64,000 nucleotides of DNA, from assembly GCF_004360155.1 (NCBI RefSeq), contig NZ_SAIS01000010.1, positions 62,001-126,000 on the forward strand, given 5' to 3'. The notes under the pieces were generated by a model. It did no database searches. It had not been told where the DNA came from and saw only the letters and a program-made list of their open reading frames with translations. This document shows positions 2,487 to 31,278 of the stretch, piece after piece (within the stretch, counting starts at the first letter, position 1; each line of letters begins with the position of its first letter). The position numbers and the translations under genes were made by a program. Source of the stretch: Paraglaciecola marina. GTDB lineage: Bacteria > Pseudomonadota > Gammaproteobacteria > Enterobacterales > Alteromonadaceae.

Positions 2487-3821
2487 ATGGACTCAACTTT
2501 TTTTAAATTAAACTCTTCACAACTAAGTTTTATTCGCCAAGGTCAAAGTGCGGCTAGTTGGGCGGGAATTGTCGTTAAATACCAAAATATTTTTTCTGCC
2601 CATGCCGCTGAAAAGTGGCTCCTAGCTGAATCTGACAGCTTTGTGTTTTCAGCATTATTCTATGCGCTTTTGGCTTCAGGAAAGTCAGTGGTATTGCCAC
2701 AAAATACTCAACCAGAACATATAAAACAGGTGAAGGAATCGGTTGGTGCTAGTGTGGGGCCGGGTAGTATATCGCCTACCTATCTATCCGATTTGGATAC
2801 CAAGCCAAGCTCAGGGATAACCTTAACTATTCCAGCAGAGTCTGAAGTGTATTTTTATACTTCTGGCTCTACAGGTGTTCCTAAAATTATTGTTAAGCCA
2901 TTTAAGTTGTTACAAAGAGAGGTGGATGCATTAGAGGCTAAATTTTCTGAGCAAGTTAAAGGAACCGTATTTGTATCAACTGTTCCACATCAGCATATTT
3001 ACGGCTTGCTCTATAAAATTTTATGGCCTATGAGTAAAGGTCACAGCTTTGTTCCCCAAGGATTTGAATACCCAGAACAAATGGCTAATCAAATTGCACA
3101 AGATGATTGTAGAAGTGCGACTATTATATCTAGCCCTGCACAATTGCAGCGAATGGTCGCAGACAACCCCTTACTAGCTGTAAAGGATAAGGTAACCAAC
3201 ATCTTTTCTTCTGGAGGCCCGTTAGATGCAAAGAAAAATTTAGAATTACAAGATGTTTTACAATGCACTCTAATAGAGGTTTTTGGTAGTACAGAAACTG
3301 GCGGAATTGGTTGGCGGTGTCGGCAGTCAATTCAAGATGAGGACTGGCATACCTTTAATGAAGTCAATATCTCTTACCAACACAATAGTGATTTATTAGC
3401 CATATCTTCATCTTATATTAATGAGCCTATTTTTAATGCAGATGACCGTGTTGAATTAATAGATGCTAGTCGGTTCCGAGTCTTAGGACGAGCTGATAGT
3501 GTGGTAAAAATTGAAGAAAAAAGAGTCTCGTTAGATGAAGTGCAAGCAAGGCTAAAACAACACCCATTTGTGGACGATGCGTTTGTGGTGGTAGTTGGTT
3601 CAGAGCGGCGCAAGTTGGCAGTGTTAATTGTCTTAAATGATGCAGGGTTAAAGGCCCGTGAAGGGGGTAAAAAAATTGAATTGGATAGGCTATTTAAAGG
3701 TTTTTTATCTAACTGGTATGAAGCTGTTTTACTGCCAAAAAAATATAGATATCCAGTTGAATTACCCTATAATGCCAGAGGAAAATTGAGTAGGCGAGAA
3801 GCGGAGTCTTATTTTGAGTGA
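2487..3821 (+). CDS. apeH: ApeH-like AMP-dependent aromatic acid ligase
   Basis: A 444-residue ANL-superfamily adenylating enzyme. The P-loop-like A3 motif is YFYTSGSTGVPKIIVK (near residue 127). It has an FGSTETGGIG motif near residue 266, a D-R hinge region (FNADDRVEL, then RVLGRADSVVKI) and a C-terminal catalytic lysine region (LPYNARGKLSR). The protein is shorter than acyl-CoA synthetases but typical for aryl-polyene AMP ligases, which adenylate an aromatic starter acid and load it onto an ACP. It is the first gene of the + operon and overlaps the next start by 8 bases. The natural substrate is presumably a coumarate- or benzoate-type acid; this is inference. Confidence 0.85.
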   Translation: MDSTFFKLNSSQLSFIRQGQSAASWAGIVVKYQNIFSAHAAEKWLLAESDSFVFSALFYALLASGKSVVLPQNTQPEHIKQVKESVGASVGPGSISPTYLSDLDTKPSSGITLTIPAESEVYFYTSGSTGVPKIIVKPFKLLQREVDALEAKFSEQVKGTVFVSTVPHQHIYGLLYKILWPMSKGHSFVPQGFEYPEQMANQIAQDDCRSATIISSPAQLQRMVADNPLLAVKDKVTNIFSSGGPLDAKKNLELQDVLQCTLIEVFGSTETGGIGWRCRQSIQDEDWHTFNEVNISYQHNSDLLAISSSYINEPIFNADDRVELIDASRFRVLGRADSVVKIEEKRVSLDEVQARLKQHPFVDDAFVVVVGSERRKLAVLIVLNDAGLKAREGGKKIELDRLFKGFLSNWYEAVLLPKKYRYPVELPYNARGKLSRREAESYFE

Positions 3822-4164
3822 AGATGTATATCATGGAGATATATTAACTAAAGAGTTAGCTGAGGAAGAGGTTAAATTGGAGCTTAAAATTCCAGAGAAT
3901 CTTTATTATTTTCGAGGTCACTTCCCATCAGCTCCCGTACTCCCTGGTGTCACTTTAACCCATTGGGTAATGGAATACTTAGCAGAATATTTTGATGTTG
4001 ATCCCGATAAATTTGTGGGCTTAAGCGCATTAAAGTTCCAGATTATCATTCGTCCAAATTATGAGATATCTCTGCATTTAAAAAGAATCAATTCTAGTAA
4101 ATATTCCTTTAGCTATAGTTCTGTACATGGGCAGCATGCCTCGGGCAAGGTGTTGTTTAAGTGA
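3814..4164 (+). CDS. apeI: ApeI-like hotdog 3-hydroxyacyl-ACP dehydratase
   Basis: A 116-residue FabA/FabZ-like hotdog protein. It shows the family signature FRGHFPSAPVLPGV (residues about 33-46), with the catalytic His in GHFP. In known APE systems a short dehydratase of this type pairs with ApeP to dehydrate 3-hydroxyacyl-ACP intermediates during polyene extension. The start is a TTG at 3814 inside the end of the AMP ligase gene, with GGAG 8 bases upstream. The stop overlaps the GTG of the glycosyltransferase gene by 4 bases. Confidence 0.83.
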   Translation: MSEDVYHGDILTKELAEEEVKLELKIPENLYYFRGHFPSAPVLPGVTLTHWVMEYLAEYFDVDPDKFVGLSALKFQIIIRPNYEISLHLKRINSSKYSFSYSSVHGQHASGKVLFK

Positions 4165-4901
4165 CGTCTCAGTACTGTATTGTGATCCCTAATTATAATC
4201 ATGGGGATGTGATTGAAGACACTATTGCGAGTCTTATTGAGTTTACACTGCCCATCATTTTAGTGGATGACGGCAGCGAACCTTTGACTCAGAAGGTGCT
4301 TTCAAAAATTGATGAAAAATATGCTGAAGTGGTGTTGTTACGTAGAGATAAAAACGGTGGTAAAGGTGCAGCTGTTAATACTGGCCTTGTAAAAGCCTAT
4401 GAGATGGGTATGACCCATGCTTTGCAAATTGACGCTGACGGACAACATGACTTAGCAGACGTTGACACTATGCTGGCTGAGTCTAGAAGTAATCCCAAAG
4501 CGTTAATTAGTGGTAGGCCAATCTACGACGATAGTATTTCAAAAAGCCGTTATTATGGCCGCTTTATCACTCACTTCTGGGTATGGATCGAAACCCTCTC
4601 TTTGCAAATAAAAGACTCAATGTGTGGCTTTAGAGTTTACCCATTAGAGGCATATGCAGAGTTAATCAAACAAGTTAAATTGGGAACTCGCATGGACTAT
4701 GACATTGAAGTTATGGTGCGCTTATTCTGGCAAGGGGTAAATGTAAGGTTTATTGCCACTAAGGTACATTATCCTGAAGGTGGGGTTTCCCACTTTAATG
4801 CGCTGCAAGATAATTGGTTAATCTCAAAGATGCATAGCAAACTTTTTTTCGGCATGTTGGTGCGTTTTCCTGCATTGCTTTTTAGACGCAGTAATAGGTA
4901 G
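4161..4901 (+). CDS. Family 2 glycosyltransferase (N-terminal half of ApeJ-type function)
   Basis: A 246-residue GT-A fold enzyme. It starts with YCIVIPNYNHGDVIEDTI, has VDDGS near residue 37 and the metal-binding DADGQHD near residue 93. A C-terminal hydrophobic stretch (KLFFGMLVRFPALLF) may associate with the membrane. It resembles dolichol-phosphate-mannose-synthase-type GT2 enzymes. In many APE clusters glycosyltransferase and acyltransferase domains are fused; here they are adjacent separate genes. The GTG start overlaps the preceding TGA. The sugar donor and the acceptor lipid cannot be told from sequence. Confidence 0.8.
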   Translation: MTSQYCIVIPNYNHGDVIEDTIASLIEFTLPIILVDDGSEPLTQKVLSKIDEKYAEVVLLRRDKNGGKGAAVNTGLVKAYEMGMTHALQIDADGQHDLADVDTMLAESRSNPKALISGRPIYDDSISKSRYYGRFITHFWVWIETLSLQIKDSMCGFRVYPLEAYAELIKQVKLGTRMDYDIEVMVRLFWQGVNVRFIATKVHYPEGGVSHFNALQDNWLISKMHSKLFFGMLVRFPALLFRRSNR

Positions 4902-4903
4902 TC

Positions 4904-5896
4904 ATGGAACAAAATCAACATTGGTCAACACTGAAAGAGCGTGGCAGCATGTTCGGTATTCAATGCCTAGTTTTTATCTACAAGGTCTTTGGCAAAGGGC
5001 TTTTTCAAGTATGTTTGTTTCCTGTGATGCTTTATTTTTATTTTACTGGGCGTATTGCAAGGCACGCCATTAAAGATTATTGGATACAATTAGAAACCAC
5101 TCGTGGCGTCACACCATCTAAAGGTTATAGGTTACATCGCCATGCATTTAAGGTGTTTATTTCCTTCGGATTAGCGATTGTGGATAAGTTCGATGCCTGG
5201 TTAGGTAAAATTCATATTGAAGACATTGAAATCATGAATTCTGAGGTTTATAACAAATTAACCTCCAGCCAAGGGGCCGTAATCTTAAGTGCCCACTTAG
5301 GTAATATGGAAATATGTCGGGCTATTTTTAGCTCTGGTGAAAATAAGAAAAAACTCAACGTTATTACTTACAACGAGCATGCGCCCTCATTTAATAATTT
5401 TCTCAAAAAAATTAATCCAGATGCCGCAATAAATTTTATTCATGTGAATAACTTTGGGCCTGATGACACTATTATGTTGAAACAGAAAATAGATGATGGT
5501 GAAGCAGTGGTTATTTTTGCAGACCGTACTTCAGTGAATAACCCAAACAGTGTTAATTTTGCCCCTTTCTTGTCTAAACCTGCACCCATAGCTATTGGGC
5601 CCTTTGCCTTAGCTACAATTATGGAATGCCCCGTATTTTTTATGACATGTATAAAAAACTCAGAAAAGGGAAAGTATCAAACTTACATTGAAGAGTTTGC
5701 TGAGCCCACTAAAGTGAAGCGAAAAGAGCGTAAAGAGTATTTTCAAATGTTGATGGAAAAGTATACCGATAGATTAGGTTACTATTGTTTACAAGAACCT
5801 TATCAATGGAACAACTTTTTTGATTTCTGGCGTGCTAACGAAGCAGAAAACCCTAACCAACCAAAACAAAAAATAGATAAAGCGGGAGTAAGCTAA
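4904..5896 (+). CDS. LpxL/HtrB-like lipid acyltransferase
   Basis: A 330-residue protein has an N-terminal hydrophobic segment (FQVCLFPVMLYFYFTG). A catalytic HX4E motif is visible in SAHLGNMEICR (about residues 129-139), followed by an FADRTS block and a C-terminal YQWNNFFDFW typical of pigment-cluster acyltransferases. LpxL-family enzymes move acyl chains from ACP to a lipid acceptor at the inner membrane. It starts 2 bases after the GT2 stop and directly precedes the ammonia-lyase. It could acylate a lipid anchor with the aryl polyene, or build that anchor. Confidence 0.82.
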   Translation: MEQNQHWSTLKERGSMFGIQCLVFIYKVFGKGLFQVCLFPVMLYFYFTGRIARHAIKDYWIQLETTRGVTPSKGYRLHRHAFKVFISFGLAIVDKFDAWLGKIHIEDIEIMNSEVYNKLTSSQGAVILSAHLGNMEICRAIFSSGENKKKLNVITYNEHAPSFNNFLKKINPDAAINFIHVNNFGPDDTIMLKQKIDDGEAVVIFADRTSVNNPNSVNFAPFLSKPAPIAIGPFALATIMECPVFFMTCIKNSEKGKYQTYIEEFAEPTKVKRKERKEYFQMLMEKYTDRLGYYCLQEPYQWNNFFDFWRANEAENPNQPKQKIDKAGVS

Positions 5897-7447
5897 ATGG
5901 AGTCAGGCTTGAATAAAGTGTGTTTGGGTTCAAATAAGATCTCTATTGAAGATGTCGTGAGAATTGCAAAGTCTGGTACACAAGTTGTGTTGTCTGAAGA
6001 TGAGCTTTTTCGGAAAAGAATCGACCAAGGCGTAAAGTTTTTAGATAAATTGCTAGAAGAAGACGGACATATCTACGGGGTTACAACGGGATATGGTGAC
6101 TCTTGTACCGTAGAAGTACCCTTGACACTGGTTGGTGAATTACCTATTCATTTAACACGGTTTCATGGTTGTGGATTAGGTGAATTTTTTAGTGTTGAAG
6201 AAGGCAGAGCAATATTAGCTGCTCGCTTGATATCCCTATCTCAAGGTTTTTCTGGAGTTAGTTGGGACTTACTAAACTTACTCGTGGCTATGTTAAATCA
6301 AAACATTATTCCGGTTATCCCTCAAGAGGGTTCTGTGGGGGCAAGTGGCGATCTTACACCTTTATCATATGTAGCGGGAGCCTTGATTGGTGAGCGAGAT
6401 GTTTACTACCAAGATAAAATAATGCCAAGCTCCGAAGCCTTTAAATTAGCAGGGCTTGCGCCAATTACGCTGCGCCCTAAAGAAGGCTTGGCCATTATGA
6501 ATGGCACAGCAGTAATGACTGCTTTAGCTTGTCTAGCCTATGACAGAGCCACTTATTTAGCGAAATTAATGGCAAGGATAACAGCCTTATCTAGTTTGGC
6601 ATTGAAGGGTAATAGCAACCATTTTGACGATATCTTATTTAGTGTGAAGCCTCATCCTGGGCAAAATCAAATTGCTGCGTGGATTCAACAGGATCTCAAT
6701 CATCACTCTCATCCACGTAATTCACAACGGCTACAAGATAGGTATTCTATTCGTTGCGCCCCCCATATTATTGGTGTGTTGCAGGATAGCCTGCCTTGGT
6801 TCCAAAGTATGATCACCAATGAGCTTAATAGCGCTAACGATAATCCCATCATAGATGGAATTGGTGAGCATGTTTTGCACGGTGGGCATTTTTATGGTGG
6901 CCATATTGCTATGGCGATGGACTCGCTAAAAAATTGTGTTGCTAACTTAGCTGATCTAGCTGATAGGCAAATTGCCACTATGGTTGATGTAAAAATGAAT
7001 CATGGTTTGCCTTCTAACTTGTCTGGTGCTAAAGGCGAAAGAAAGTTTATCAATCATGGTTTTAAAGCAATACAGATTGGCTGTTCAGCTTGGACCGCTG
7101 AAGCATTAAAGTTAACTATGCCAGCTAGTGTGTTTTCCCGTTCAACCGAATGCCATAACCAAGACAAAGTAAGCATGGGAACCATAGCTGCTAGAGATTG
7201 TTTGCGGGTTTTACAATTAACTGAGCAGGTTATTGCAGCTACTTTACTGGCTTCAGTGCAGGGGGTGTGGTTGCGTATTCGAAGTGGAGAGCTTCAAAAG
7301 GCGTCATTAACCACAGAAATGACAAGCATGTTAGATGATATTAGTGAGTTCTTTGAGCTCATAGATGAAGACCGTCCTACTGATAAATTGCTACGTCAGA
7401 CAGTTGAGTTTGTACAACAACAAAAATGGTCTTTATATGAAAGCTAA
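5897..7447 (+). CDS. Aromatic amino acid (Tyr/His-type) ammonia-lyase
   Basis: A 516-residue MIO-cofactor lyase. The MIO tripeptide is A149-S150-G151 in EGSVGASGDLTPL. The catalytic Tyr is Y60 in IYGVTTGYG, and NGTAVMT and NSANDNP-like blocks are present. Such enzymes remove ammonia from Tyr, Phe or His; in flexirubin pathways a tyrosine ammonia-lyase makes 4-coumarate as starter. By my alignment the selectivity pair falls at F89-H90 (TRFHGCG), unlike His-Leu in Rhodobacter TAL or Ser-His in histidase, so the substrate is uncertain. It overlaps the thioesterase start by 11 bases. A catabolic histidase is unlikely because no hut genes are nearby. Confidence 0.85.
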   Translation: MESGLNKVCLGSNKISIEDVVRIAKSGTQVVLSEDELFRKRIDQGVKFLDKLLEEDGHIYGVTTGYGDSCTVEVPLTLVGELPIHLTRFHGCGLGEFFSVEEGRAILAARLISLSQGFSGVSWDLLNLLVAMLNQNIIPVIPQEGSVGASGDLTPLSYVAGALIGERDVYYQDKIMPSSEAFKLAGLAPITLRPKEGLAIMNGTAVMTALACLAYDRATYLAKLMARITALSSLALKGNSNHFDDILFSVKPHPGQNQIAAWIQQDLNHHSHPRNSQRLQDRYSIRCAPHIIGVLQDSLPWFQSMITNELNSANDNPIIDGIGEHVLHGGHFYGGHIAMAMDSLKNCVANLADLADRQIATMVDVKMNHGLPSNLSGAKGERKFINHGFKAIQIGCSAWTAEALKLTMPASVFSRSTECHNQDKVSMGTIAARDCLRVLQLTEQVIAATLLASVQGVWLRIRSGELQKASLTTEMTSMLDDISEFFELIDEDRPTDKLLRQTVEFVQQQKWSLYES

Positions 7448-7868
7448 ACCCATAGTTAGCGTTAGCACTGAAATGGAAGTTCAGTTCTATGATGTTGATT
7501 CTATGCGGGTGGTTTGGCATGGAAATTATGTTAAATATTTAGAAGCTGCGCGCTGTGAGTTATTAAAGGCTTTTGACTATAACTATCTTGAAATGGAAGC
7601 CACTGGCTATATTTGGCCGATTGTAGATATGCGTTTGAAATATGTCGCATCTGCCAAATTGAGTGACTTTATTATCGTAGAGGCTAACCTAGTAGAGTAT
7701 CAAAGTAGGTTAAAAATAGAATACGTGATCAGAGATAAAGCCACTGACAAGGTATTAAATAAGGCCTATACCATTCAGGTTGCCGTAGATATTACAAATG
7801 GTGAGATGTTATTTGAAACGCCCCAATGTGTATTGGAAAAATTATCGCCATATATAAATGAATTATAA
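7437..7868 (+). CDS. apeK: ApeK-like 4HBT-family acyl thioesterase
   Basis: A 143-residue single hotdog domain. It carries the 4-hydroxybenzoyl-CoA-thioesterase/YbgC signature YDVDSMRVVWHGNYVKYLEAAR near residues 17-38, with the catalytic Asp in VDSM. It probably hydrolyses or edits acyl-ACP/CoA intermediates of polyene synthesis. The ATG at 7437, inside the ammonia-lyase end, is chosen over the longer frame from 7365 because the domain begins right after it. Confidence 0.8.
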   Translation: MKAKPIVSVSTEMEVQFYDVDSMRVVWHGNYVKYLEAARCELLKAFDYNYLEMEATGYIWPIVDMRLKYVASAKLSDFIIVEANLVEYQSRLKIEYVIRDKATDKVLNKAYTIQVAVDITNGEMLFETPQCVLEKLSPYINEL

Positions 7869-7903
7869 AAATAGCTTATGGTTTTAAAGACGGAGTAGGG
7901 AAT

Positions 7904-9148
7904 ATGAGTAATACAGAAGCCTGTGATGTAGTCATAATAGGAGCTGGTCCAGCTGGTGCTATTGCAGCCGCTATTTTAGCTAATAAAGGTTGGAATACCA
8001 TAGTCGTAGAGCGTGAGGAGTTTCCTCGCTTTTCAATAGGTGAAAGCCTTTTGCCACATTGTATGGAATTTGTGGAGCAAGCGGGTTTGTTAGATGGGCT
8101 GCTTAAACATGCCTCTGAACTGCACTTTCAATATAAAAACGGTGCAGCTTTCTACCGTAAAGGTGAACGTTCAGATTTCAACTTTGAGCAAAAATTCTCT
8201 GAAGGGCCAGGTACTACTTTTCAAGTTAAACGAGCAGCATTCGACAAGTTATTAGCAGACGAAGCAGCTAAAACAGGTGCTGACTTTAGATACAAGCAAA
8301 CTGTTCAATCAGTAACTAATGACGTCGAAGGTGCCTGCTTAGAAGTTAGCACCGAGCAAGGTAGCTACCAGTTAAACGCCAAGTTTATGTTGGATGCCAG
8401 CGGTTTTGGGCGGGTGTTACCTCGGATGTTGGACTTAGAGTTACCCAGTAACCTTAGCAACAGAAAAGCAGTATTTACTCACTTTAAAGATAATATCCCT
8501 AAGAACGCCAATTTCGACCGTGAAAAAATATTGATCACTGTACACCCTGAAATTGCTGATGTGTGGTATTGGTTAATTCCCTTTTCTGACGGTACCTCAA
8601 GTATTGGTGTGGTAGGACGCCCAGAGTGCTTCGACGAGTCTCAAAGTTGTGAGCAGCAGTTACTCAAGTTCATACATGACGACGACAATTTAGGTGAGCT
8701 ATTAGCCACGGCAGAAGTGTTACAACCAGCCCGAGTGATTGGTGGTTACTCTGCTAGTGTTAAATCCTTGCATGGTCCTAGTTTTGCGTTACTTGGTAAT
8801 GCTGGAGAATTCTTAGATCCGGTATTTTCATCTGGTGTGACTATAGCTATGCGCTCTGCAGCATCAGCTGCCACACTACTAGATCGTCAATTATCAGGGG
8901 AAACTATCGACTGGCAAACTGAGTATGAAGTCCCATTACGTAAGGGAATTGAAGTATTCAAAACCTTTGTTATGTCTTGGTATGACACTAGCTTTCAAAA
9001 TGTAATTTTTTTCCAAGATGAAGAGTCAGAGGTTAAGCCTATGATCACTTCAATTTTGGCTGGGTACGCTTGGGATGAAACCAACCCTTTTGTGAAAAGC
9101 TCAACTCGAGGCATTCGTATGTTAACTAAACTATGTGAGGCAGATTAG
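7904..9148 (+). CDS. FAD-dependent halogenase-like oxidoreductase
   Basis: A 414-residue flavoprotein. The dinucleotide motif is GAGPAG at residues 13-18, the family block is SIGESLLPH near 44-52, and a second FAD block is DASGFGR near 164-170. It has WYWLIP at 221-226, fitting the WxWxIP signature of flavin-dependent halogenases. K78 in YKNGAAF lies about where the halogenase catalytic lysine is expected. Members of this halogenase/geranylgeranyl-reductase-like family occur in flexirubin and xanthomonadin-type clusters. It may chlorinate or brominate the aryl ring; a non-halogenating monooxygenase or reductase remains possible. Good upstream spacing (GGAG about 9 bases before ATG). Confidence 0.72.
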   Translation: MSNTEACDVVIIGAGPAGAIAAAILANKGWNTIVVEREEFPRFSIGESLLPHCMEFVEQAGLLDGLLKHASELHFQYKNGAAFYRKGERSDFNFEQKFSEGPGTTFQVKRAAFDKLLADEAAKTGADFRYKQTVQSVTNDVEGACLEVSTEQGSYQLNAKFMLDASGFGRVLPRMLDLELPSNLSNRKAVFTHFKDNIPKNANFDREKILITVHPEIADVWYWLIPFSDGTSSIGVVGRPECFDESQSCEQQLLKFIHDDDNLGELLATAEVLQPARVIGGYSASVKSLHGPSFALLGNAGEFLDPVFSSGVTIAMRSAASAATLLDRQLSGETIDWQTEYEVPLRKGIEVFKTFVMSWYDTSFQNVIFFQDEESEVKPMITSILAGYAWDETNPFVKSSTRGIRMLTKLCEAD

Positions 9149-10336
9149 TTGTATAACGCGACACCTTTATACATTAATGGTATTGGCTTATGTAATCCGT
9201 TAGGTGGCAATGCAGATGAAGTGGCGGCAAATTTATTTGCTGGAACTCAAAGTGGAATGCTATTACGTGAAGATTTACTGCACGAAGGTAAGGTATATGT
9301 TGGGCAAGTGACCATAGACTTACCTGAATTAAGCTCGTTTTCAAAACACTTTCAAAGTCGCAATAACCAATTGTTATTACAGGCCTATAAACAAATTGAG
9401 CCTCTAGTGAATGAGCTTAAACTACAATTTTCGAGTACTCGATTTGGCATTATATTGGGTACGAGCACTTCTGGCATTGCTCAAGGTGAAGAGGCAATGG
9501 GGTATAGACTTGACGCAGAGAGCTTTCCTGATAGCTATGACTATCGTATTCAAGAGTTATCAAACCCTGCTGAGTTTCTGAGTGAATATGCCGAGCTTGA
9601 TGGATACGTTTCAGTAATTTCAACAGCTTGCTCATCTAGCGCTAAGTCATTTATAACAGCGGCAGAGATGATAAGTGCCGGGTTAATAGACGTCGCTATT
9701 GTCGGTGGAGTTGATTCATTATGTGGCATGACAGTAAATGGTTTTAGTGCTTTGGAATCGACATCGGACGGTATTTGTAATCCATCAAGCGTTAACCGTG
9801 ATGGTATCAATATTGGCGAAGCGGCAGCCTTAGCGGTATTGAGTCGTAAAAAGTCAGCCATTAAGTTTTGCTCGGGTGGTGAATCTAGTGACGCTCATCA
9901 TATGTCAGCCCCACACCCTGAAGGTGCTGGTGCCAAAGTAGCAATGCAACATGCATTAACTCAGGCGCAGCTTAATCCTGAAGATATTAGTTACATTAAT
10001 CTACATGGCACAGCTACGCCAAAAAATGATGAGATGGAAGCCATAGCGGTAGCATCTGTTTTTCCCAATGACACTTATGTAAGCTCTACTAAGGGCTGTG
10101 TTGGCCATACTTTGGGAGCTGCTGGGGCAACAGAAATCGCCTTTTGTTATTTAGCGTTACAACATCAAAAAATGCCTCCCCATATTTGGGATGGTGAAAA
10201 AGACTCTGCTATGCCTGAATTAAATTGGGTCAAAGCAGAAAGCCAAATCGAAGGGGGTTTAAAATATTGTTTAAGTAACTCCTTTGCATTTGGCGGAAAT
10301 AATGTGAGTTTAATTATAGGTTTAGAACATGAATAA
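9149..10336 (+). CDS. apeO: ApeO-like beta-ketoacyl-ACP synthase
   Basis: A 395-residue FabF-like ketosynthase with a full catalytic set: C161 in STACSSSAK, His in LHGTATPKND, and His in KGCVGHTLGAAG. In characterised APE systems ApeO elongates the aryl polyene with a chain-length-factor partner (ApeC). The start is TTG 9149, directly after the previous TAG, with GAGG 8 bases upstream. The gene overlaps the next start by 8 bases. Confidence 0.85.
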   Translation: MYNATPLYINGIGLCNPLGGNADEVAANLFAGTQSGMLLREDLLHEGKVYVGQVTIDLPELSSFSKHFQSRNNQLLLQAYKQIEPLVNELKLQFSSTRFGIILGTSTSGIAQGEEAMGYRLDAESFPDSYDYRIQELSNPAEFLSEYAELDGYVSVISTACSSSAKSFITAAEMISAGLIDVAIVGGVDSLCGMTVNGFSALESTSDGICNPSSVNRDGINIGEAAALAVLSRKKSAIKFCSGGESSDAHHMSAPHPEGAGAKVAMQHALTQAQLNPEDISYINLHGTATPKNDEMEAIAVASVFPNDTYVSSTKGCVGHTLGAAGATEIAFCYLALQHQKMPPHIWDGEKDSAMPELNWVKAESQIEGGLKYCLSNSFAFGGNNVSLIIGLEHE

Positions 10337-10784
10337 ATATGCCATAGAAGATGTGGTGCCACATGCTCACCCTATGATTTTGATTGAACAATTAAAAGAG
10401 TTCTGTGAAGACTCTGCTACTTGTTTATTAGAGATTAAAGAACTAAGTAACTTTTATAATCCACAAAAAAAATCGATACCATCTTATGTTGGCTTAGAAT
10501 ATTTAGCTCAAAGCATTGCAGCTTATGCGAATGCCAATAAGGTAGCTGAAGGTGGTGAAGTCGCTCTTGGGTTTTTAGTGAGCGCTCGTAGTTTTAAAGC
10601 TGCGGTAAGTGAGTTTAGATTAGGCATGCAGTTAGAAACTAGAGTTACCAAGCTATTTAAAGAAGAAAATGGTTTGAGTGTCTTTGATTGCTCAATAGTT
10701 TGCGGTGAAGACAAACTAGTTGAAGCTAAAATTAATGTATACGAACCAGAAAATCCTGATTTATATCTGAAGGAGAATACCTAA
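10329..10784 (+). CDS. apeP: ApeP-like hotdog dehydratase
   Basis: A 151-residue divergent FabZ/FabA-like protein. VPHAHPMILIEQL near residues 10-22 supplies the catalytic His, and GLEYLAQSIAAYAN near residues 55-68 supplies the acidic residue on the central helix. In known systems ApeP pairs with the smaller ApeI to form an active heterodimeric dehydratase, and both partners are present in this operon. It overlaps the ketosynthase stop and ends 2 bases before the ketoreductase start. Confidence 0.83.
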   Translation: MNKYAIEDVVPHAHPMILIEQLKEFCEDSATCLLEIKELSNFYNPQKKSIPSYVGLEYLAQSIAAYANANKVAEGGEVALGFLVSARSFKAAVSEFRLGMQLETRVTKLFKEENGLSVFDCSIVCGEDKLVEAKINVYEPENPDLYLKENT

Positions 10785-10786
10785 AA

Positions 10787-14898: not shown

Positions 14899-14900
14899 GA

Positions 14901-16046: not shown

Positions 16047-16050
16047 ATTT

Positions 16051-17009: not shown

Positions 17010-17028
17010 AACCATACCTCAATGTGAA
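17001..17028 (-). promoter_or_regulatory. Sigma-70-type promoter of the darA operon
   Basis: On the - strand TTCACA (17028-17023) and a consensus TATAAT (17006-17001) are separated by 16 bases. This places the transcription start near 16994, about 30 bases before the darA ATG. Confidence 0.55.
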
Positions 17029-17038
17029 CTCTTAGTTA

Positions 17039-19223: not shown

Positions 19224-19225
19224 CT

Positions 19226-22131: not shown

Positions 22132-22204
22132 TGTTAGTCCTTAATAATAAAAATTTAATACTGAGAAACATGATCACAACATTAAATGCCTTGCTATTCA
22201 ATCA

Positions 22205-22765: not shown

Positions 22766-22767
22766 TA

Positions 22768-25044
22768 TTATTGGTTCCGCTTTAAGATTGTCGTTGGCAG
22801 GGTGAAGCACAAAGACCACGCTATGATTACCCCTATTAATATAGTTAATCCAAATTGTAAAATCGCGGGGGTACTACTAAATACAAACATGCCAAAGGCA
22901 ATGCCCGATGTGGCGGCTGATAGGCTTATGGCTTTTATTACATGCTGTTGTTTGCCGTGTTCAATTAAAAACACCACATAATCCACAGCTAAGGCGATGA
23001 TCAGAATACAAGCTAACAAGTTAAACAAGGTCACATAACCTAAGAGTAAGTGACTCAAAGCTAAAGAGCTCAGTGCTGTGACTATGGGTATGACAGCAAG
23101 TTTTAAACCTTGTAAATAACCATATCTTAAGGTCATTAATAATAATAAAGCACCGGCGGCTAGCATCAAAAACAACAGTAAATACTCTCGCAATTTTGCA
23201 AGAGCTTCTGAGTATTTTGTTGGTTGGTCAAAGTAATGTACTGGAAAGTCTAATTGCTGTTGCAGAGTTTGTAAAAATTTTGGGTCTATTGGCCCCATGT
23301 AACTTAATATGCCTACTTGGTTACCTTCTTTAGCCGTTATTGCTGGGTAGAGTTTAAGTATTGCTTGAGGTAGCTGCTCTATCGTCATGAAACTGTCTGA
23401 TGAGGCATTGAGGTTTGATACAGACTCAGTCGTCATAAAGTCAGTGATAGGCGTTAATTTTCCTTGTGCTAAACCAAGTTGTAACCACTTAATATTGGCT
23501 TGTTGGGTGTTAATTGAAGGCACCCATTGGTCAATACCGAGTAATTCAAATCCCTCATCATTTATCTTATTAATAGCCAGTCTAATTTGCTCAAAGTGCT
23601 GCAATATTTGTTGCTGGTTGTCGCCCTTGGTATAAATGAACCTTGGGTATTGTTGATTACCTATAATCTGGCTTACCCGTTTCTCATTGTTAACTAGGTG
23701 AGCTGGGCTGCTGTTGAATGCGTTAATGTTATCTTGAAAAAACCAGGTAGGAGCGGCAGCTAAGCAACATAAAATTAGCCCTGCTAATATAACTTTGAAG
23801 CCTTGTGGTTGAAACTCTAGTTCATGGATTGGGGGATGAGTTTCAGGCTTACTTTGCCAAGGCCAATGTACTATCAAGGTTAAAGCTGTAATTATGGTGA
23901 AGGCTAAGCCTGCAACAATAAAAACAGCGACTTGTTGTAATAAAGGAATGGGTAGCAAAAGTAATAGCAAATAGCTGATAATAGTCGTTCCACCACTGAC
24001 GAAAATAGCGGGTGCAATATACCCTCTTAACTGTTTATTTCTAAACCCTGTATATTTAGCTGTTAATAGTGTGTGATACCCATAGTCGACAGCGACACCA
24101 ATCAAGCTTACTGCAAAAACTAACGATAAAATATGGATATTGTCGAATACTAAAGTAAGCGCCAACATACCTGATAGCGATGCACTACCTAGCAATAAGC
24201 TTATACAAATTAAAGGTTGGATACTTCTAAAGCTAACAAGGGTTAGTAGTAATACACCTACTATTGATATCCCGCCGAATAGTTGGGTTTCAAAGCTTGC
24301 TTGAGATGTTATCGCTGCTGAGTGAAACATTAAACCGCTAGATAGAATCTCCATGTTTGGTGTTTGGTAATGAGCCACTAACTTGTCTAGTTGCGCTATG
24401 GTAGCTACCACTGTATCTAATTGAATCGCTGCTTGGTTAAAGTTTAAAAATAATGGGTAATACCTTTTATTTTCATGCTCTATATAGGTAAACCCTTGAT
24501 CTTGTTGCCACCGATTAATAGAGGATTTATCTGCAAACCAATCTGCAACATTAAGAAGAGGCGCTTTATTAATTGTTAATGATACTAGCGGGTTTGAAGG
24601 GGCACTCATTAGACCCATGTAATTGTCTACTATGTGGGAATAATCGTTGTTATTCTTGGCTTTAGTGGCAGCTTGGCTCAAAAAAGCTAAAGGGTAACTG
24701 GAATAAATATTGGCTAACTCATTCACATCAAAGTCTTTGCTAGGTTCAGAGCTAGCTGTTTGAACTAGCCCTGTAGCTAATAGCTGTTCTGCAATTTTTG
24801 TTAAAGTTGTTTTAGACTCTTGATGTTCTTGGTGCTGAATAAGCAATAATCCCTTGGTTTTAAAAGGCTCTGCAGCGGCTTTAGTGAGGTCATTCATTTC
24901 ATCACCTAGGTCTAATACATTGAGTATATTGGCGTCAAAAGTAATGCCTCCAGAAGCTGATTTATAAACCAATGCGCTGGCCATTAGGCTAGTTAGTATT
25001 ACCCAGAGGGTGATGATTAAGCGATTATTTGAAAACGCTATCAC
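22768..25044 (-). CDS. MMPL/RND family lipid exporter (ApeM-like)
   Basis: A 758-residue RND-type protein with two repeats. Each has one helix, a large periplasmic domain and a block of helices (first block about 255-390 starting FGGISIVGVLLLTLVSF, second about 620-750). Conserved VAVDYGYHTLL and LAVDYVVFLIEHGK carry the acidic residues used for proton coupling. It starts at GTG 25044, five bases after the LolA-like stop. In APE clusters this exporter is thought to carry the acylated pigment across the periplasm. Confidence 0.83.
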   Translation of the reverse strand: MIAFSNNRLIITLWVILTSLMASALVYKSASGGITFDANILNVLDLGDEMNDLTKAAAEPFKTKGLLLIQHQEHQESKTTLTKIAEQLLATGLVQTASSEPSKDFDVNELANIYSSYPLAFLSQAATKAKNNNDYSHIVDNYMGLMSAPSNPLVSLTINKAPLLNVADWFADKSSINRWQQDQGFTYIEHENKRYYPLFLNFNQAAIQLDTVVATIAQLDKLVAHYQTPNMEILSSGLMFHSAAITSQASFETQLFGGISIVGVLLLTLVSFRSIQPLICISLLLGSASLSGMLALTLVFDNIHILSLVFAVSLIGVAVDYGYHTLLTAKYTGFRNKQLRGYIAPAIFVSGGTTIISYLLLLLLPIPLLQQVAVFIVAGLAFTIITALTLIVHWPWQSKPETHPPIHELEFQPQGFKVILAGLILCCLAAAPTWFFQDNINAFNSSPAHLVNNEKRVSQIIGNQQYPRFIYTKGDNQQQILQHFEQIRLAINKINDEGFELLGIDQWVPSINTQQANIKWLQLGLAQGKLTPITDFMTTESVSNLNASSDSFMTIEQLPQAILKLYPAITAKEGNQVGILSYMGPIDPKFLQTLQQQLDFPVHYFDQPTKYSEALAKLREYLLLFLMLAAGALLLLMTLRYGYLQGLKLAVIPIVTALSSLALSHLLLGYVTLFNLLACILIIALAVDYVVFLIEHGKQQHVIKAISLSAATSGIAFGMFVFSSTPAILQFGLTILIGVIIAWSLCFTLPTTILKRNQ

Positions 25045-25048
25045 TGGG

Positions 25049-25594
25049 TTATTGACCTTTTTCTTTGGGGTGAGTGTTTGCCTCTAAGTATATATTAGTT
25101 ACGTTTCCATTAGATTCATGCAGGATTATCTGTTGCAAAGCTTGTTCGGTGATTACTAAATCTAAGGTCTGCATAACACTGGATACTTTGGGAGCAATAG
25201 GATCTAGGGTTAACCCTTTACTATTTTCCGAAATTTTAAAATATTGAGTTAACTTTTGAGGATCTCCACTAAAAACTGGTAGTAACATGGCGCTAAAATT
25301 GGCATCAGTCGTAAGCATTTTAAAACTACCGTCCGCTTGCTTTTCTGAAACACCATCTTGGTTGATAAGTAGAAAATTGTTGACCGGTTTAAGGGTATTC
25401 CATACTAAGCCTGTTTCAGGTGAGTAATGGTATTTACCTTGGGTAACAAAAGGTCGACTTAAAGCTGCTAAGTGTTTTTCTTGGATAAAATTACCCTGAA
25501 TGTGCTTTTGGTTGGCCCAAGGAAGTTCAAAGCCATGCAATATCGGGCAATGTAAGGTAAATAAAAAAAGTAATGGTGAGAAAAAATGCCGCAT
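25049..25594 (-). CDS. LolA-like outer-membrane lipid carrier (ApeL-like)
   Basis: A 181-residue periplasmic protein: a signal peptide (FFSPLLFLFTLHCPILHG) then a LolA-type beta domain. IQGNFIQEKHLAALSRPFVT resembles the LolA start and YHYSPETGLVWNTLKP is the conserved second block. It could shield a hydrophobic pigment during transit to the outer membrane. It precedes the MMPL exporter by 4 bases. Confidence 0.82.
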   Translation of the reverse strand: MRHFFSPLLFLFTLHCPILHGFELPWANQKHIQGNFIQEKHLAALSRPFVTQGKYHYSPETGLVWNTLKPVNNFLLINQDGVSEKQADGSFKMLTTDANFSAMLLPVFSGDPQKLTQYFKISENSKGLTLDPIAPKVSSVMQTLDLVITEQALQQIILHESNGNVTNIYLEANTHPKEKGQ

Positions 25595-25622
25595 TTATAT
25601 TCCCTTTTCAAGCCTAGAAACT

Positions 25623-26168
25623 TTAGTGCTTATGTTTTACGGTTTGTCTAATTAACCACTCTGATGCGCCTAGTATGCCCATCAAAATATAAGATATGAT
25701 GCCATTGTATAGAGTCCAAATTTCAATGTCGCTATACAAAGCTGTGTAAAACGAAATACATGCATTCAGTATGAAAAAAACGCACCATACCTTGGTAAAA
25801 AAGCGGGTATAGCTAACGCCATAGTCTGAAAGATTTTTCTTTTTAATGCGTGCAAAACGTTCAATTACAGTGGGGGGATAAATTAAAGAATAGGTAAATA
25901 TTGAGAAAAACATTAAGCTCATGGCGACGGGGTAAAATTTAATACCGTAGTCAGAATTAGAAATCAATGAAAACAATAATAATGTCAGTACTCCACCAAA
26001 TACCAGCTTGAAATGCTTATGTTTACGGGAGCTAGATTTATCTAATACAAATCGTAGAGTTAACAATAAAATGAGTAAAGCCGAGACAATACTAGGGTTA
26101 CAGTATTTAAGGCCAAAATAAGCAATTATTGGATACAGTACAGCCAGAACAGTTAATAGAATAGGCAA
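25623..26168 (-). CDS. COG4648-type membrane protein (ApeG-like)
   Basis: A 181-residue protein with about five or six membrane helices (first ILLTVLAVLYPIIAYFGLKY) and the cytoplasmic motif YPPTVIERFARIKKKNLSDYG. A protein of this type accompanies the ACPs and AMP ligase in most APE clusters; its role is unknown. The start is a TTG at 26168 with GAG 9 bases upstream; the next in-frame ATG would remove the first helices. Confidence 0.7.
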   Translation of the reverse strand: MPILLTVLAVLYPIIAYFGLKYCNPSIVSALLILLLTLRFVLDKSSSRKHKHFKLVFGGVLTLLLFSLISNSDYGIKFYPVAMSLMFFSIFTYSLIYPPTVIERFARIKKKNLSDYGVSYTRFFTKVWCVFFILNACISFYTALYSDIEIWTLYNGIISYILMGILGASEWLIRQTVKHKH

Positions 26169-26238
26169 TTTATGAACTCGCTGAGTCTAGTTGAAAAGCT
26201 AGCATTTTAATCTAGGACTAGTATCGAATAAGTGTGTC

Positions 26239-27036
26239 TTAAGATTCATGTTGCTCATAAACTTTATTAAACTGTGCAAAGTCTTCTCTGTAAGTTTGCT
26301 GGATATCTCTAGTTAATTGACGTACCGACTTACTGATAGTTTCAGCTGGGTAATTACTGGTATCTACTTCGTCTAAAATCACTAATTTCATATGAATCTT
26401 TCTATCTGGGACTTTGTACCAAGGCAAGCCTTTTGTAAGTGCTGGTGGTGTTACTTCTATTAACACTCGCTGAAAATTTTTCTCACAACGCAATGCGATA
26501 TTGGCTGCACCTCTTTTAAAATCAAAATCTGCACCGGGCAAGGTTCGGGTTCCTTCAGGGAATATAATCAGGTTACAGCCTTTTTCCAATGAGGTTTTAC
26601 AATCTGTTATCAAATCTTCTGGATCGGCATTGCTGATGTAACCTGTATTTTTGATGATTCCTCTAGTAAAAACATTCTGTAAAAGTGTCTGTTTAACTAT
26701 GCAGTCGGCGTTTTTGACTATGGATATCAATACCACCACGTCGATAAGAGAAGGGTGATTGGCAATAATTATTTTTCCTTTGACCCTTTTTAAGGCTTCT
26801 ACCCCCTTAGTGTCGACTTTTGTAACCCCCACCACATACATTAGCCAGACAAAACTTTTAAAAGTTAGATGTACCGCATAGCGGCAGGCTTGTTTGCGTT
26901 TTTCTTCATTATTTTTATATCGGATCCTATAAAAAGGTAACCATAATGTAGCAATGATTATGCCCCCAATACCAAAAACAGCGAAGCAAAAGCCAGTGCC
27001 AAATAATCGCCAAATTTTACTTAAAAATATAATCAC
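26239..27036 (-). CDS. PlsC-like 1-acylglycerol-3-phosphate-type acyltransferase
   Basis: A 265-residue membrane-bound acyltransferase. It has an N-terminal membrane segment (FGTGFCFAVFGIGGIIIATLW), the catalytic HX4D in NHPSLIDVV near residue 94, and FPEGTRT near residue 159. PlsC-type enzymes occur in APE clusters (ApeD position) and may acylate a lipid or the polyene ester. The start appears to be GTG 27036 with a weak ribosome site. It follows the FadH-like gene by 31 bases. Confidence 0.8.
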   Translation of the reverse strand: MIIFLSKIWRLFGTGFCFAVFGIGGIIIATLWLPFYRIRYKNNEEKRKQACRYAVHLTFKSFVWLMYVVGVTKVDTKGVEALKRVKGKIIIANHPSLIDVVVLISIVKNADCIVKQTLLQNVFTRGIIKNTGYISNADPEDLITDCKTSLEKGCNLIIFPEGTRTLPGADFDFKRGAANIALRCEKNFQRVLIEVTPPALTKGLPWYKVPDRKIHMKLVILDEVDTSNYPAETISKSVRQLTRDIQQTYREDFAQFNKVYEQHES

Positions 27037-27067
27037 AATATCTATTACTTACTCTTTTGGACCTTTG

Positions 27068-29132
<2,065 letters not shown>

Positions 29133-29162
29133 GAATTTTTGGTTTTTTAAGTTGCAATCTAA

Positions 29163-29852
29163 ATGAAAGAAGTGGGTAAATTCAATACAATAGATGGCTT
29201 TTTAACTGAAAGTACCTATCTATTCTATTGCGATATACAAACATGCACTGTGCAAAATCAAAAAATTTTCTCACGCTTAAACTCTGAAGATTGCGAGCGG
29301 TTTGTGAGATTTAAGAAACCTTTGCGCAAGTATCAGTTTGGTATAGCCCGTTGTTTAGTGAAACAGGTGTTGTTTGAGTATTTCCATATTCCCCTAGAGC
29401 ATCAATATACACTTACGGATTACTGTGAGTGGCGGGTAATAGACACAAACAGAAAGTTTTATATTTCTATAAGCCATAGTAAAAATATAGTGGTGGTGGC
29501 TATATCATTACAGAAACAACCTATAGGCGTAGATATTGAGTTTCAAAAAGAGCGAAATTTCCTTGAGTTAATTAATAGTTTGGGATCAGAAAATGAAAGA
29601 GTTTTATTCCAAAAAAATCCCGATAAAAAACGAATGTTTTATCAATTATGGACAGCAAAAGAAGCCTATATAAAAGCCTTTCAAATGACCTTAAGTGAGC
29701 TGACTAAAGTAGATTTATCGGCGTTAAGTAATAATGAGGATGACCAAGAGTGGCAGATACAGGAGTACACGCTTGAAGAAAATTCATATTTTATGTGTTT
29801 GCTCGCTCATAAAGGAATAAGCGTAACGCTTCAAAAGGTTATTCTGAATTGA
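29163..29852 (+). CDS. Sfp-type 4'-phosphopantetheinyl transferase
   Basis: A 229-residue PPTase with the family motifs in order: KYQFGIARCLVKQVL, FYISISHSKNIVVVAIS, the metal-binding IGVDIEF and the catalytic LWTAKEAYIKAF. It transfers phosphopantetheine from CoA to the serine of ACPs; the three cluster ACPs are the obvious substrates. It is divergent from the FadH-like gene and is the first gene of a + strand operon. Confidence 0.9.
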   Translation: MKEVGKFNTIDGFLTESTYLFYCDIQTCTVQNQKIFSRLNSEDCERFVRFKKPLRKYQFGIARCLVKQVLFEYFHIPLEHQYTLTDYCEWRVIDTNRKFYISISHSKNIVVVAISLQKQPIGVDIEFQKERNFLELINSLGSENERVLFQKNPDKKRMFYQLWTAKEAYIKAFQMTLSELTKVDLSALSNNEDDQEWQIQEYTLEENSYFMCLLAHKGISVTLQKVILN

Positions 29853-29914
29853 ATGTTTGATCCTATATGTACGAGCTCGTAGAATAGCTGCCCCAAAAAC
29901 TAGGAGTATTATAA

Positions 29915-30643
29915 ATGGAATTGGCGTTTCAAATTGCCAAGTGCGTTGCTTGGGCCCCCGGGGTAGAAACTGAGCAAGAGTGGTGTTTATGGCAGGCTGA
30001 AAAACATGATTTTTCATCCGATATTTCTTTGCCAGCTTTAAAAGCCATCCCAGCCATGCAAAGACGCCGACTAAGCCCTTTTGCAAAGGTTAGTCTACAT
30101 TGTGCTTTGGAAGCGAGTGACCATCGACAAGGAGATTTACCTTGTGTGTTTTCATCTCGTCATGGAGACTTAAACCGCACTACCAAACTCATTGAAAATG
30201 TTGCAGCAAAAGAAGATTTATCTCCTACTCAATTTGGTTTATCTGTGCACAATGCCGTTTCTGGTTTATATAGTATTTACACTAAAAATCAGGCGCCTAT
30301 TTCAGCTATTGCCTCTGGAAAGACCAGCTTTATGGCTGGTTTAGTGGATAGTGTGGTGAAATTACATGTAAACCAACTAGACCACATTTTATATGTATAT
30401 ACAGATTTAAGCGTACCTGATTGTTATTCGGGTTACCTTGATACTAACGAGTCTATTGGTATTGGTTTATTGATTCAGGCTAGTGCATTTCAAGGTGAAG
30501 GGTTTAAGTTAAGCAGTGCAACAACTAATCATGCAGTCTTGATGGGTATACAATCTTTAGACTTTCTTAACTTCTATTATGGTGATGCAATAAGCTGGAA
30601 TACTCCTGTAAATAAACAGACTTGGACATTAACAAAAAACTAG
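29915..30643 (+). CDS. apeC: ApeC-like ketosynthase chain length factor
   Basis: A 242-residue protein of the Ketoacyl-synt_2 (chain length factor) type. It carries RRRLSPFAKVSLHCALEA, VFSSRHGDLNRTTKLIE, LSPTQFGLSVHNAVSGLYSI and IASGKTSFMAGLVDS. It lacks a KS catalytic set. In APE systems such a protein forms a heterodimer with the KS ApeO and sets polyene length. AGGAG is 8 bases before the ATG. It sits between the PPTase and two ACPs. The symbol is by analogy with characterised APE clusters. Confidence 0.78.
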   Translation: MELAFQIAKCVAWAPGVETEQEWCLWQAEKHDFSSDISLPALKAIPAMQRRRLSPFAKVSLHCALEASDHRQGDLPCVFSSRHGDLNRTTKLIENVAAKEDLSPTQFGLSVHNAVSGLYSIYTKNQAPISAIASGKTSFMAGLVDSVVKLHVNQLDHILYVYTDLSVPDCYSGYLDTNESIGIGLLIQASAFQGEGFKLSSATTNHAVLMGIQSLDFLNFYYGDAISWNTPVNKQTWTLTKN

Positions 30644-30761
30644 GGCAAAAACTTTGCCAGTCAAAGCACATCGCCACTTTATGATAAGTTGCTAATGCTA
30701 AATTGATTGGTATTATTGGCCTCATTAAAGTTATTCGAATGAAGTTATAAAAGGAAGTGAA

Positions 30762-31019
30762 ATGAGTGATCTTATCCTTGAGATAAAAAACCTGATCATT
30801 GATGCGTTAGATTTGGAAGATGTCACCCCTGATGATATTGAAGATGAGGCACCATTATTTGTAGATGGCCTAGGCCTTGATTCTATAGATGCGTTAGAGC
30901 TAGGTGTTGCCATTAAAAAAGCCTATAAGGTAAAAATTGATGGTAATACTGAAGAGAGTAAAAAGTACTTCTATTCAGTTAAAAGTTTACACGACTTTGT
31001 TTTAAAAGCTCAAAACTAG
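30762..31019 (+). CDS. Acyl carrier protein (ApeE/ApeF type, first copy)
   Basis: An 85-residue ACP with the attachment serine S41 in GLGLDSIDALELG and a strongly acidic helix I-II loop (EDVTPDDIEDEAP). Good ribosome site (AAAAGGAAGTGAA before ATG). It is followed 13 bases later by a second ACP. Confidence 0.9.
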   Translation: MSDLILEIKNLIIDALDLEDVTPDDIEDEAPLFVDGLGLDSIDALELGVAIKKAYKVKIDGNTEESKKYFYSVKSLHDFVLKAQN

Positions 31020-31032
31020 GATAGAAATACTC

Positions 31033-31278
31033 ATGAATTCAGAACAAATATTATCAATGGTGAAAACCATTTTAGTTGAAGAGTTTGAGATTGAAGAATC
31101 CGATATAGTGCCTGAAGCTAATATATACCAAGATTTAGATATCGATAGCATAGATGTAGTGGATTTAGTGGTTCGGCTTAGAACTGAAACCGGCAAAGTT
31201 ATTGAGCCAGAAAATTTTAAGCAGGTTCGTACTATTGGTGATTTAACCAGTGCTTTAAGCACTATGATGAATGATTAA
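31033..31278 (+). CDS. Acyl carrier protein (ApeE/ApeF type, second copy)
   Basis: An 81-residue ACP with the attachment serine S39 in QDLDIDSIDVVDLV. It differs from the first ACP in helix II (VVDLVVRLRTETG), so the two may dock with different enzymes, for example the AMP ligase versus the elongating KS. Adjacent paired ACPs are usual in APE clusters. Confidence 0.9.
   Translation: MNSEQILSMVKTILVEEFEIEESDIVPEANIYQDLDIDSIDVVDLVVRLRTETGKVIEPENFKQVRTIGDLTSALSTMMND

Follow-up and report, generated by a model that had tools for sequence, protein, structure and literature searches.

The locus described here raised the question of how an aryl polyene (APE) is joined to a 2,5-dialkylresorcinol (DAR) and which enzyme makes the bond. 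Flexirubin-type pigments are common and serve as taxonomic markers, and the cited literature leaves the enzyme that joins polyene and resorcinol unshown. The locus lies in a 64,000-nucleotide stretch of Paraglaciecola marina DNA (assembly GCF_004360155.1, contig NZ_SAIS01000010.1, positions 62,001 to 126,000), which is referred to in full as the window. At window positions 2487 to 31278 (~29 kb), a complete APE gene set encloses a complete DAR module. We favor the view that this cluster is a 29-kb island for an outer-membrane pigment of the same kind as flexirubin and arcuflavin, an ester of an APE and a 2,5-dialkylresorcinol, with the DarH protein as the joining enzyme. An ester is the likely product; that DarH makes the ester is probable, with less assurance. 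The pigment is most likely yellow-orange and located in the membrane. The observations consist of gene content, reading frames, motifs, the similarity of the DarH fold and gene co-occurrence, and from these we infer all of the reactions and the product. An earlier note on this DNA had predicted an APE-DAR ester, and the ester remained the best reading; the DAR half is a whole arcuflavin-type module that includes a predicted acyltransferase. Two of the statements that the note offered in support needed to be changed.

The DAR module occupied positions 13476 to 21559, and the polyene part occupied positions 2487 to 12738 and 21700 to 31278. The genes in and beside the module were as follows (window positions; strand; matches, with scores and model cut-offs).

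12817 to 13404, minus strand: lipoprotein-like protein with a BamE-type domain (PF04355, 27 bits, cut-off 23); adjoins DarH in five other clusters of the genus
13476 to 14546, minus strand: DarH, proposed polyene-to-resorcinol O-acyltransferase (NF053550, 484 bits, cut-off 300; PF14399, PF16169)
14491 to 14898, minus strand: DarG, partner of DarH (NF053536, 178 bits, cut-off 70)
14901 to 16094, minus strand: DarB, resorcinol-forming synthase of the ketosynthase (KS) III type (NF005293, StlD/DarB, 583 bits, cut-off 450; Cys, His and Asn motifs)
16051 to 16965, minus strand: DarA, aromatizing partner of DarB, assigned by its place upstream of and overlapping darB
17039 to 17521, plus strand: DUF2141 protein (PF09912)
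17518 to 18126, minus strand: DarK, 202 amino acids, similar to a chain-length factor (CLF)
18123 to 19223, minus strand: DarJ, KS of the DAR module (PF02801; Cys-His-His motifs)
19226 to 19498, minus strand: DarC, acyl carrier protein (ACP) of the DAR module (PF00550)
19489 to 20640, minus strand: ABC-2 permease (PF12698)
20621 to 21559, minus strand: ABC ATPase (PF00005)

No match to DarA was found in Pfam or NCBIfam, and the DarK sequence alone also had no match in either. A 35-sequence DarK profile (A3) matched the N-domain of a KS chain, 7f28_A (E 1.5e-07). The full content of the arcuflavin-type dar module (darA, B, C, D, E, F, I, J and K) was found between 13476 and 21559, as matched by annotation and gene place rather than by sequence. 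We used the NCBIfam names, in which DarH corresponds to the BtrH-like darE of Azoarcus; the gene called darH in Azoarcus encodes a PilT domain.

The candidate for the joining step was DarH, which had three invariant residues, C32, H146 and D163. Its AlphaFold model gave fold matches to the papain-fold carrier-protein acyltransferases AziU3, CtaG, CcbD and BtrH, and thus the fold points to a predicted carrier-protein acyltransferase. The sequence identity to these proteins was 10 to 15%, and none of them is known to use a resorcinol as acceptor. CcbD acts as a condensing enzyme, a role that the PDB titles of complexes of CcbD with a peptidyl carrier protein support. In 2015, the function of CcbD was described as not known (PMC4351081). 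When a DarH profile was compared with the sequences in the PDB, the matches were just helical repeat designs and apolipophorin, and none was meaningful. DarH had no match on plasmids at E 1e-30.

The neighborhoods of DarH relatives were surveyed in the best 80 of at least 565 relatives in named genomes, with some loci shortened by contig ends. These 80 came from Pseudomonas, Vibrio, Photobacterium, Rheinheimera, Pasteurellaceae and Neisseria, as well as Sulfurimonas, Variovorax, Dechloromonas, Hirschia and Desulfobulbaceae. DarG was present in 78 of the loci, DarB in 75, DarA in 72, the ABC ATPase in 70, the permease in 69, DarC in 66, DarJ in 61 and DarK in 56; the two loci lacking DarG (L140 and L127) start 0.2 and 0.8 kb upstream of DarH. 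Similar results were obtained with the 49 named loci that had full flanks (~10 kb on either side, each locus at least 20.9 kb): DarG was found in all 49, DarB and DarA in 48 each, the ATPase, permease and DarC in 46 each, DarJ in 43 and DarK in 41. Conversely, DarB scored above its cut-off in three genomes without DarH (G125, G219 and G242), and BLAST and profile searches of 20 kb around these genes found DarA and DarB but no other gene of the module. The DarA-DarB pair of Chitinophaga is reported to be sufficient for DAR formation when expressed alone (PMC3992019). Because DarG and DarH travel together, loci with only DarA and DarB exist and DarA-DarB is sufficient, we place DarG-DarH after DAR formation. 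Taken together, the survey suggests that DarA, DarB, DarG and DarH move as one set among Proteobacteria and related groups, partly beside APE genes. The dar genes and DarG-DarH were also seen in records of Aggregatibacter, Conservatibacter, Rodentibacter, Avibacterium, Neisseria and Frischella (L107, L113, L116, L119, L147, L151, L152, L161 and L169).

The co-occurrence of the two pathways was examined in genome samples of three ranks. Among 22 genomes of the genus, DarH scored above its cut-off in six (a seventh match, in G017, was far below it), DarB scored above its cut-off in the same six, and an APE CLF was found in these six and two more; G014 had a second DarB-like protein below the cut-off. 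In the class sample (369 genomes), DarB was above its cut-off in 21, DarH in 18, and a CLF was found in 86 (E values up to 1e-10). The CLF accompanied DarB in every one of its 21 genomes and DarH in every one of its 18 (Fisher P 6.5e-15 and 9.3e-13, respectively, with relatedness ignored), and four DarB-like proteins below the cut-off occurred without a CLF or DarH. In the order sample (252 genomes, two of them shared with the class sample), DarB was above its cut-off in 11, all with DarH and a CLF; DarH was above its cut-off in 12, and a CLF was found in 115. Another two DarB-like proteins of this sample, which scored below the cut-off, had neither a CLF nor, at E 1e-60, a DarH with them.

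Physical linkage was more mixed. DarH and CLF genes lay within 30 kb in 8 of the 12 class-sample genomes that could be resolved; in four, they were on different contigs with DarH at least 27 kb from both contig ends, and another six were left unresolved by contigs shorter than 23 kb. In the order sample, five pairs were linked, two were more than 1 Mb apart on one contig, three were on different contigs (of unrecorded length), one DarH was near a contig start and one genome lacked a CLF; linkage is thus 5 of 10 if the three different-contig cases count as apart. At least two core APE genes were present in 16 of the 49 full-flank DarH loci. APE-DAR linkage is therefore common but not the rule, at between one third and two thirds of cases depending on the sample and the distance used, and the claim that the two pathways are usually separate in gammaproteobacteria, which the earlier note had made, was too strong. 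Published counts for 39 genomes with polyene genes give DAR clusters in 16, of which nine are within or beside the polyene genes (PMC3949708). Hybrid APE-DAR clusters of gammaproteobacteria have been published for Pseudoalteromonas (PMC9966250) and Pseudomonas (PMC10165715); in view of these and PMC3949708, we rejected the idea that the hybrid cluster itself is new. A search of one open-licence library for Paraglaciecola with "arylpolyene" returned no publication, the spelling "aryl polyene" not having been tried with the genus.

The polyene part of the cluster contained the following genes, some of which were compared with three APE loci that lack DAR genes (L073, L074 and L082).

2487 to 3821, plus strand: AMP ligase for aryl-starter activation (ApeH/FlxY role; PF00501, 65 bits; best NCBIfam model TIGR02372, 4-coumarate-CoA ligase, 118 bits, below the cut-off of 335)
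3814 to 4164, plus strand: ApeI-like dehydratase (PF22818, 42 bits)
4161 to 4901, plus strand: family 2 glycosyltransferase (GT2; PF00535)
4904 to 5896, plus strand: lysophospholipid-acyltransferase-like protein (PF03279, marginally above cut-off)
5897 to 7447, plus strand: aromatic amino acid ammonia-lyase of the phenylalanine/tyrosine ammonia-lyase (PAL/TAL) class, proposed source of the aryl head (PF00221, 538 bits)
7365 to 7868, plus strand: acyl thioesterase (4HBT; PF13279)
7904 to 9148, plus strand: halogenase-type protein dependent on flavin adenine dinucleotide (PF04820 and others)
9149 to 10336, plus strand: ketosynthase 1 (NF006618, 510 bits, cut-off 407; Cys-His-His motifs)
10329 to 10784, plus strand: ApeP-like dehydratase (PF22817)
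10787 to 11512, plus strand: ketoreductase (KR; PF00106)
11509 to 12738, plus strand: ketosynthase 2 (NF006587, 702 bits, cut-off 470; Cys-His-His motifs)
21700 to 22131, minus strand: small protein with no function assigned, recurrent in APE clusters (homologues in L073, L074 and L082; no Pfam or NCBIfam family matched)
22205 to 22819, minus strand: DUF3261, LolB-like protein (ApeN role; PF11659)
22768 to 25044, minus strand: RND/MMPL-type exporter (ApeM role; weak RND matches below cut-offs)
25049 to 25594, minus strand: LolA-like chaperone (ApeL role; PF03548, E 1.7e-04, marginally below cut-off; NF053544, 42.9 bits, cut-off 125)
25623 to 26168, minus strand: membrane protein, likely ApeG (homologues immediately downstream of two ACPs in L073 and L074)
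26239 to 27036, minus strand: 1-acylglycerol-phosphate-acyltransferase-like protein (PF01553)
27068 to 29086, minus strand: OYE/FadH-type flavin reductase (PF00724, 281 bits; none of the 25 NCBIfam models listed reached its cut-off)
29163 to 29852, plus strand: 4'-phosphopantetheinyl transferase (PPTase; PF01648)
29915 to 30643, plus strand: APE CLF (ApeC role; PF13723, 170 bits; the sole PF13723 match in this genome)
30762 to 31019, plus strand: ACP (PF00550)
31033 to 31278, plus strand: ACP (PF00550)

The Pfam scan covered 33 proteins between 2487 and 31278, leaving out nine open reading frames of at least 75 amino acids that each overlapped a larger one, and the NCBIfam scan covered 20 of the 33. 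All of the named genes had intact frames. These included everything on the list in the earlier note (ligase, two dehydratases, KR, three KSs, two CLF-like proteins, three ACPs, PPTase, thioesterase, export proteins and darA-darB). That inventory had passed over the ammonia-lyase, the halogenase-type flavoprotein, the ABC exporter, DarG and DarH, as well as the OYE-type reductase, GT2 and the two acyltransferase-like proteins at 4904 and 26239. Because 13476 to 21559 is the DAR module, the three KSs, the two CLF-like proteins and the three ACPs each contribute one member to the DAR side. The polyene polyketide synthase core of APE-DAR ester clusters (ligase, KS, CLF, KR, dehydratases and ACP) was thus present together with darA-darB, with DarB above the NF005293 cut-off and DarA placed by position only. 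The ApeG assignment parallels E. coli, in which ApeG is described directly downstream of two ACPs (PMC8253772). The OYE/FadH-type reductase was present in all six genus clusters and in none of the three DAR-free APE stretches.

The same genes were present in five other genomes of the genus (darA was split in one, G014), and because of this recurrence the gene set is not a product of chance. In both genomes compared (G014 and G002), the nonsynonymous rate (dN) was far below the synonymous rate (dS), with dS saturated or at least 1.35. The cluster was also found on a contig of Paraglaciecola arctica A3R16, and Rfam and tRNA scans of the window gave no match. It is a real, intact APE-DAR cluster of a kind of system that is already known.

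The ammonia-lyase had the 4-methylideneimidazole-5-one motif ASG at residues 149 to 151, the switch residues F89-H90 and Gln422. Gln at motif 2 places an enzyme in the PAL/TAL class according to a published rule (PMC3992019). The protein scored below the histidine ammonia-lyase (HAL) model NF006871 (399 bits, cut-off 524), and we rejected an ordinary HutH in view of its scores below the HutH cut-offs and Gln at motif 2. The lyase thus points to a putative head derived from phenylalanine or tyrosine. The same work emphasizes that specificity is not readable from sequence, and FlxA, a TAL, had a HAL-like switch (PMC3992019). Among solved chains, the halogenase-type protein was closest to 3nix (344 bits), followed by PltA (135 bits). 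It had the halogenase motifs GxGxxG, WxWxIP, catalytic Lys and FxDPxFSxG (GAGPAG, WYWLIP, KNGAAF and FLDPVFSSG, respectively), and halogenase motifs were kept in all eight homologues checked (>300 amino acids). These homologues included proteins of the DAR-free APE clusters L073 and L074, and therefore the gene is not specific to the hybrid. The enzyme may chlorinate or brominate the head. The prediction of a non-methylated head stood insofar as Pfam found no methyltransferase among the 33 cluster proteins, in a search confined to the cluster with the nine overlapping frames unscanned; the prediction had overlooked the ammonia-lyase and the halogenase-type enzyme. A XanB2-type chorismatase domain, the arcuflavin-type polyene start, was likewise not found by Pfam among the 33 proteins.

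In the pathway that we propose, the ammonia-lyase would convert phenylalanine or tyrosine to cinnamate or 4-coumarate, and the AMP ligase would load the aryl acid onto an ACP. The KS, CLF, KR and ApeI/ApeP dehydratase proteins would extend it to the polyene, with possible halogenation of the ring by the halogenase-type flavoprotein. DarB and DarA would assemble the dialkylresorcinol. DarH, with its papain fold and Cys-His-Asp residues, would then accept the polyene on Cys32 from an ACP, perhaps DarC, and transfer it to a resorcinol hydroxyl, yielding the ester. Transport of the product to the outer membrane would fall to the ABC exporter together with the RND, LolA and DUF3261 proteins. We also considered the bolder proposal that DarH is the missing flexirubin-type ester synthase and that the genus makes a polyene with a cinnamate-built, non-hydroxylated, halogenated head, a pigment class not yet described; this combination is improbable. 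If it were true, a Cys-dependent carrier-protein acyltransferase would O-acylate a resorcinol, and a new polyene head would come from a Phe-type lyase. What this locus adds is a strong candidate for the joining enzyme. Because one compact cluster of a marine genus carries one DarH gene, the ester step can be tested by deletion or by in vitro assay.

The ester could be real and have another maker, such as DarJ-DarK acting as a KS/CLF pair that forms a C-O bond, the lysophospholipid-acyltransferase-like protein or a FlxW-like ligase. We regard this as a possibility worth weighing, though an unlikely one. KS-like enzymes that form C-O bonds exist (nonactin), and DarJ and DarK were common companions of DarH (61 and 56 of 80 loci; 43 and 41 of 49 with full flanks). 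However, two loci (L092 and L158) had DarG-DarH without DarJ, DarC or the ABC genes within 10 kb, and the acyltransferases also occurred in the DAR-free loci L073, L074 and L082. As for a ligase, the ligase-like FlxW has been proposed for flexirubin (PMC3992019), but the AMP ligase at 2487 to 3821 was the sole AMP-binding protein detected in the cluster. A doubtful alternative, more so than another maker, is that the genes for two unconnected products lie together by happenstance, one product being an APE lipid like those of E. coli and Xenorhabdus and the other a dialkylresorcinol that stays free. The glycosyltransferase, acyltransferase and transport genes of lipid-linked APE clusters were all retained here, and G219 has a DarA-DarB-only locus in a genome with a separate APE cluster. 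Against this, the window has the extended module of DarG, DarH, DarC, DarJ, DarK and the ABC genes, the modeled DarH fold suggests a carrier-protein acyltransferase, and Azoarcus, which has the same module, makes an ester, with free DAR reported as not detected (PMC3949708).

Least probable is that the lyase supplies DarB instead of the polyene, so that an aryl resorcinol would form by a stilbene-like pathway such as that of Photorhabdus. DarB does belong to the StlD/DarB family, and F89 of the lyase is a switch residue of the Phe type. Nevertheless, in each of the six genus clusters the lyase gene was part of a single run that also comprised the genes for the ligase, ApeI, GT2, acyltransferase and thioesterase, and a lyase is described as starting the polyene in flexirubin clusters (PMC3992019).

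Several observations weigh against the APE-DAR ester made by DarH. DarB scored below the stricter resorcinol DarB model NF053539 (499.8 bits, cut-off 550), DarG below the flexirubin DarG model NF053545 (138.3 bits, cut-off 170) and the lyase below the FlxA-type TAL model NF053541 (326.6 bits, cut-off 700). A shared fold is no proof of the DarH substrate, and a sugar-lipid APE could also be made because the GT2 and acyltransferases of lipid-linked APEs were retained. APE co-occurrence does not single out DarH because G125, G219 and G242, which have DarB without DarH, also have the PF13723 CLF. Fewer than two core APE genes were present in 33 of the 49 full-flank DarH loci. In the class sample, three DarH-like matches below the cut-off occurred without DarB (G034, G122 and G159), with a CLF in G122 only, and one order-sample genome (G497, 88% complete, 600 contigs) had DarH without a CLF or DarB. 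Two loci (L130 and L157) had DarG-DarH and several KSs but no DarA-DarB in the 10 kb upstream (downstream, L157 extends 2.5 kb only), and therefore DarH may have other acceptors. These two are metagenome-assembled genomes titled Deltaproteobacteria and Syntrophaceae.

The cluster, with flanks at 1356 to 2186 and 31305 to 31961, lies between a DUF2937 gene and a DsbA gene, which were neighbors (within 1 kb) in 12 of the 20 other genomes that had both. A small ABM gene beside DUF2937 was also found between the two in three of the six intact sites checked (G002, G012 and G018). Thus, the cluster splits a DUF2937-ABM-DsbA neighborhood that is uninterrupted in several other genomes of the genus, and is an insertion. 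No integrase was present among the annotated proteins of the window, and no tRNA was found in it. The ABM-domain frame was broken at an eight-G run (1987 to 1994), which could reflect either a genuine frameshift or an error in the sequence. The blocks of the cluster had one order in the window and G014 and a second order in G002, G004, G007 and G020; the second is a circular permutation of the first with strands kept (L075-L078, L089-L090 and L172-L181 compared with the window), and the genes flanking the cluster were the same in G007 and G014 despite their different orders. Tandem duplication and loss, or excision and reinsertion, could explain the permutation. In G014 (end of L075 and L076 1-2776), darA was in three overlapping pieces and an extra 446-amino-acid open reading frame lay between darK and the DUF2141 gene; the DAR part of this genome may therefore be inactive.

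Among known systems, the APE cluster of E. coli CFT073 shares with the window the type II polyketide synthase core, CLF, two dehydratases and RND/LolA/DUF3261 transport, but its gene table lists no DAR module, ammonia-lyase or halogenase-type gene, and it has the methyltransferase ApeB (PMC8253772). APE and DAR genes are joined, as in the window, in the gammaproteobacteria Pseudoalteromonas (PMC9966250) and marine Pseudomonas (APE-DAR V1-V3; PMC10165715), which we compared by description; three hybrid-bearing Pseudoalteromonas strains are yellow-orange (PMC9966250). Flexirubin and arcuflavin are described as APE-DAR esters (PMC3992019, PMC3949708). The flexirubin clusters of Chitinophaga pinensis and Flavobacterium johnsoniae resemble the window in the lyase and ligase polyene start, darA-darB, and the LolA-like, exporter and acyltransferase genes (PMC3992019). 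By model scores, the window is not a strict member of that group, as its lyase, DarG and LolA fell below the flexirubin-specific NF053541, NF053545 and NF053544. The head group differs among flexirubins in its methylation and chlorination and is methylated in C. pinensis (PMC3992019). The arcuflavin system of Azoarcus sp. BH72 is spread over three loci, in contrast to one cluster here; its head is built from 3-hydroxybenzoate via a XanB2-type enzyme with a methionine-derived methyl group, in contrast to the ammonia-lyase and the lack of a detected methyltransferase here, and its dar locus has PHD/PilT-type genes (named darG and darH there) that were not found in the window (PMC3949708). The arcuflavin product was identified as an APE-DAR hybrid by mass spectrometry and feeding and interpreted as an ester (PMC3949708). 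Like the window, Azoarcus has polyene genes, a halogenase-like gene, a glycosyltransferase, acyltransferases and LolA, together with the DAR module darA, B, C, D, E, F, I, J and K as annotated in table 1 of that work (PMC3949708).

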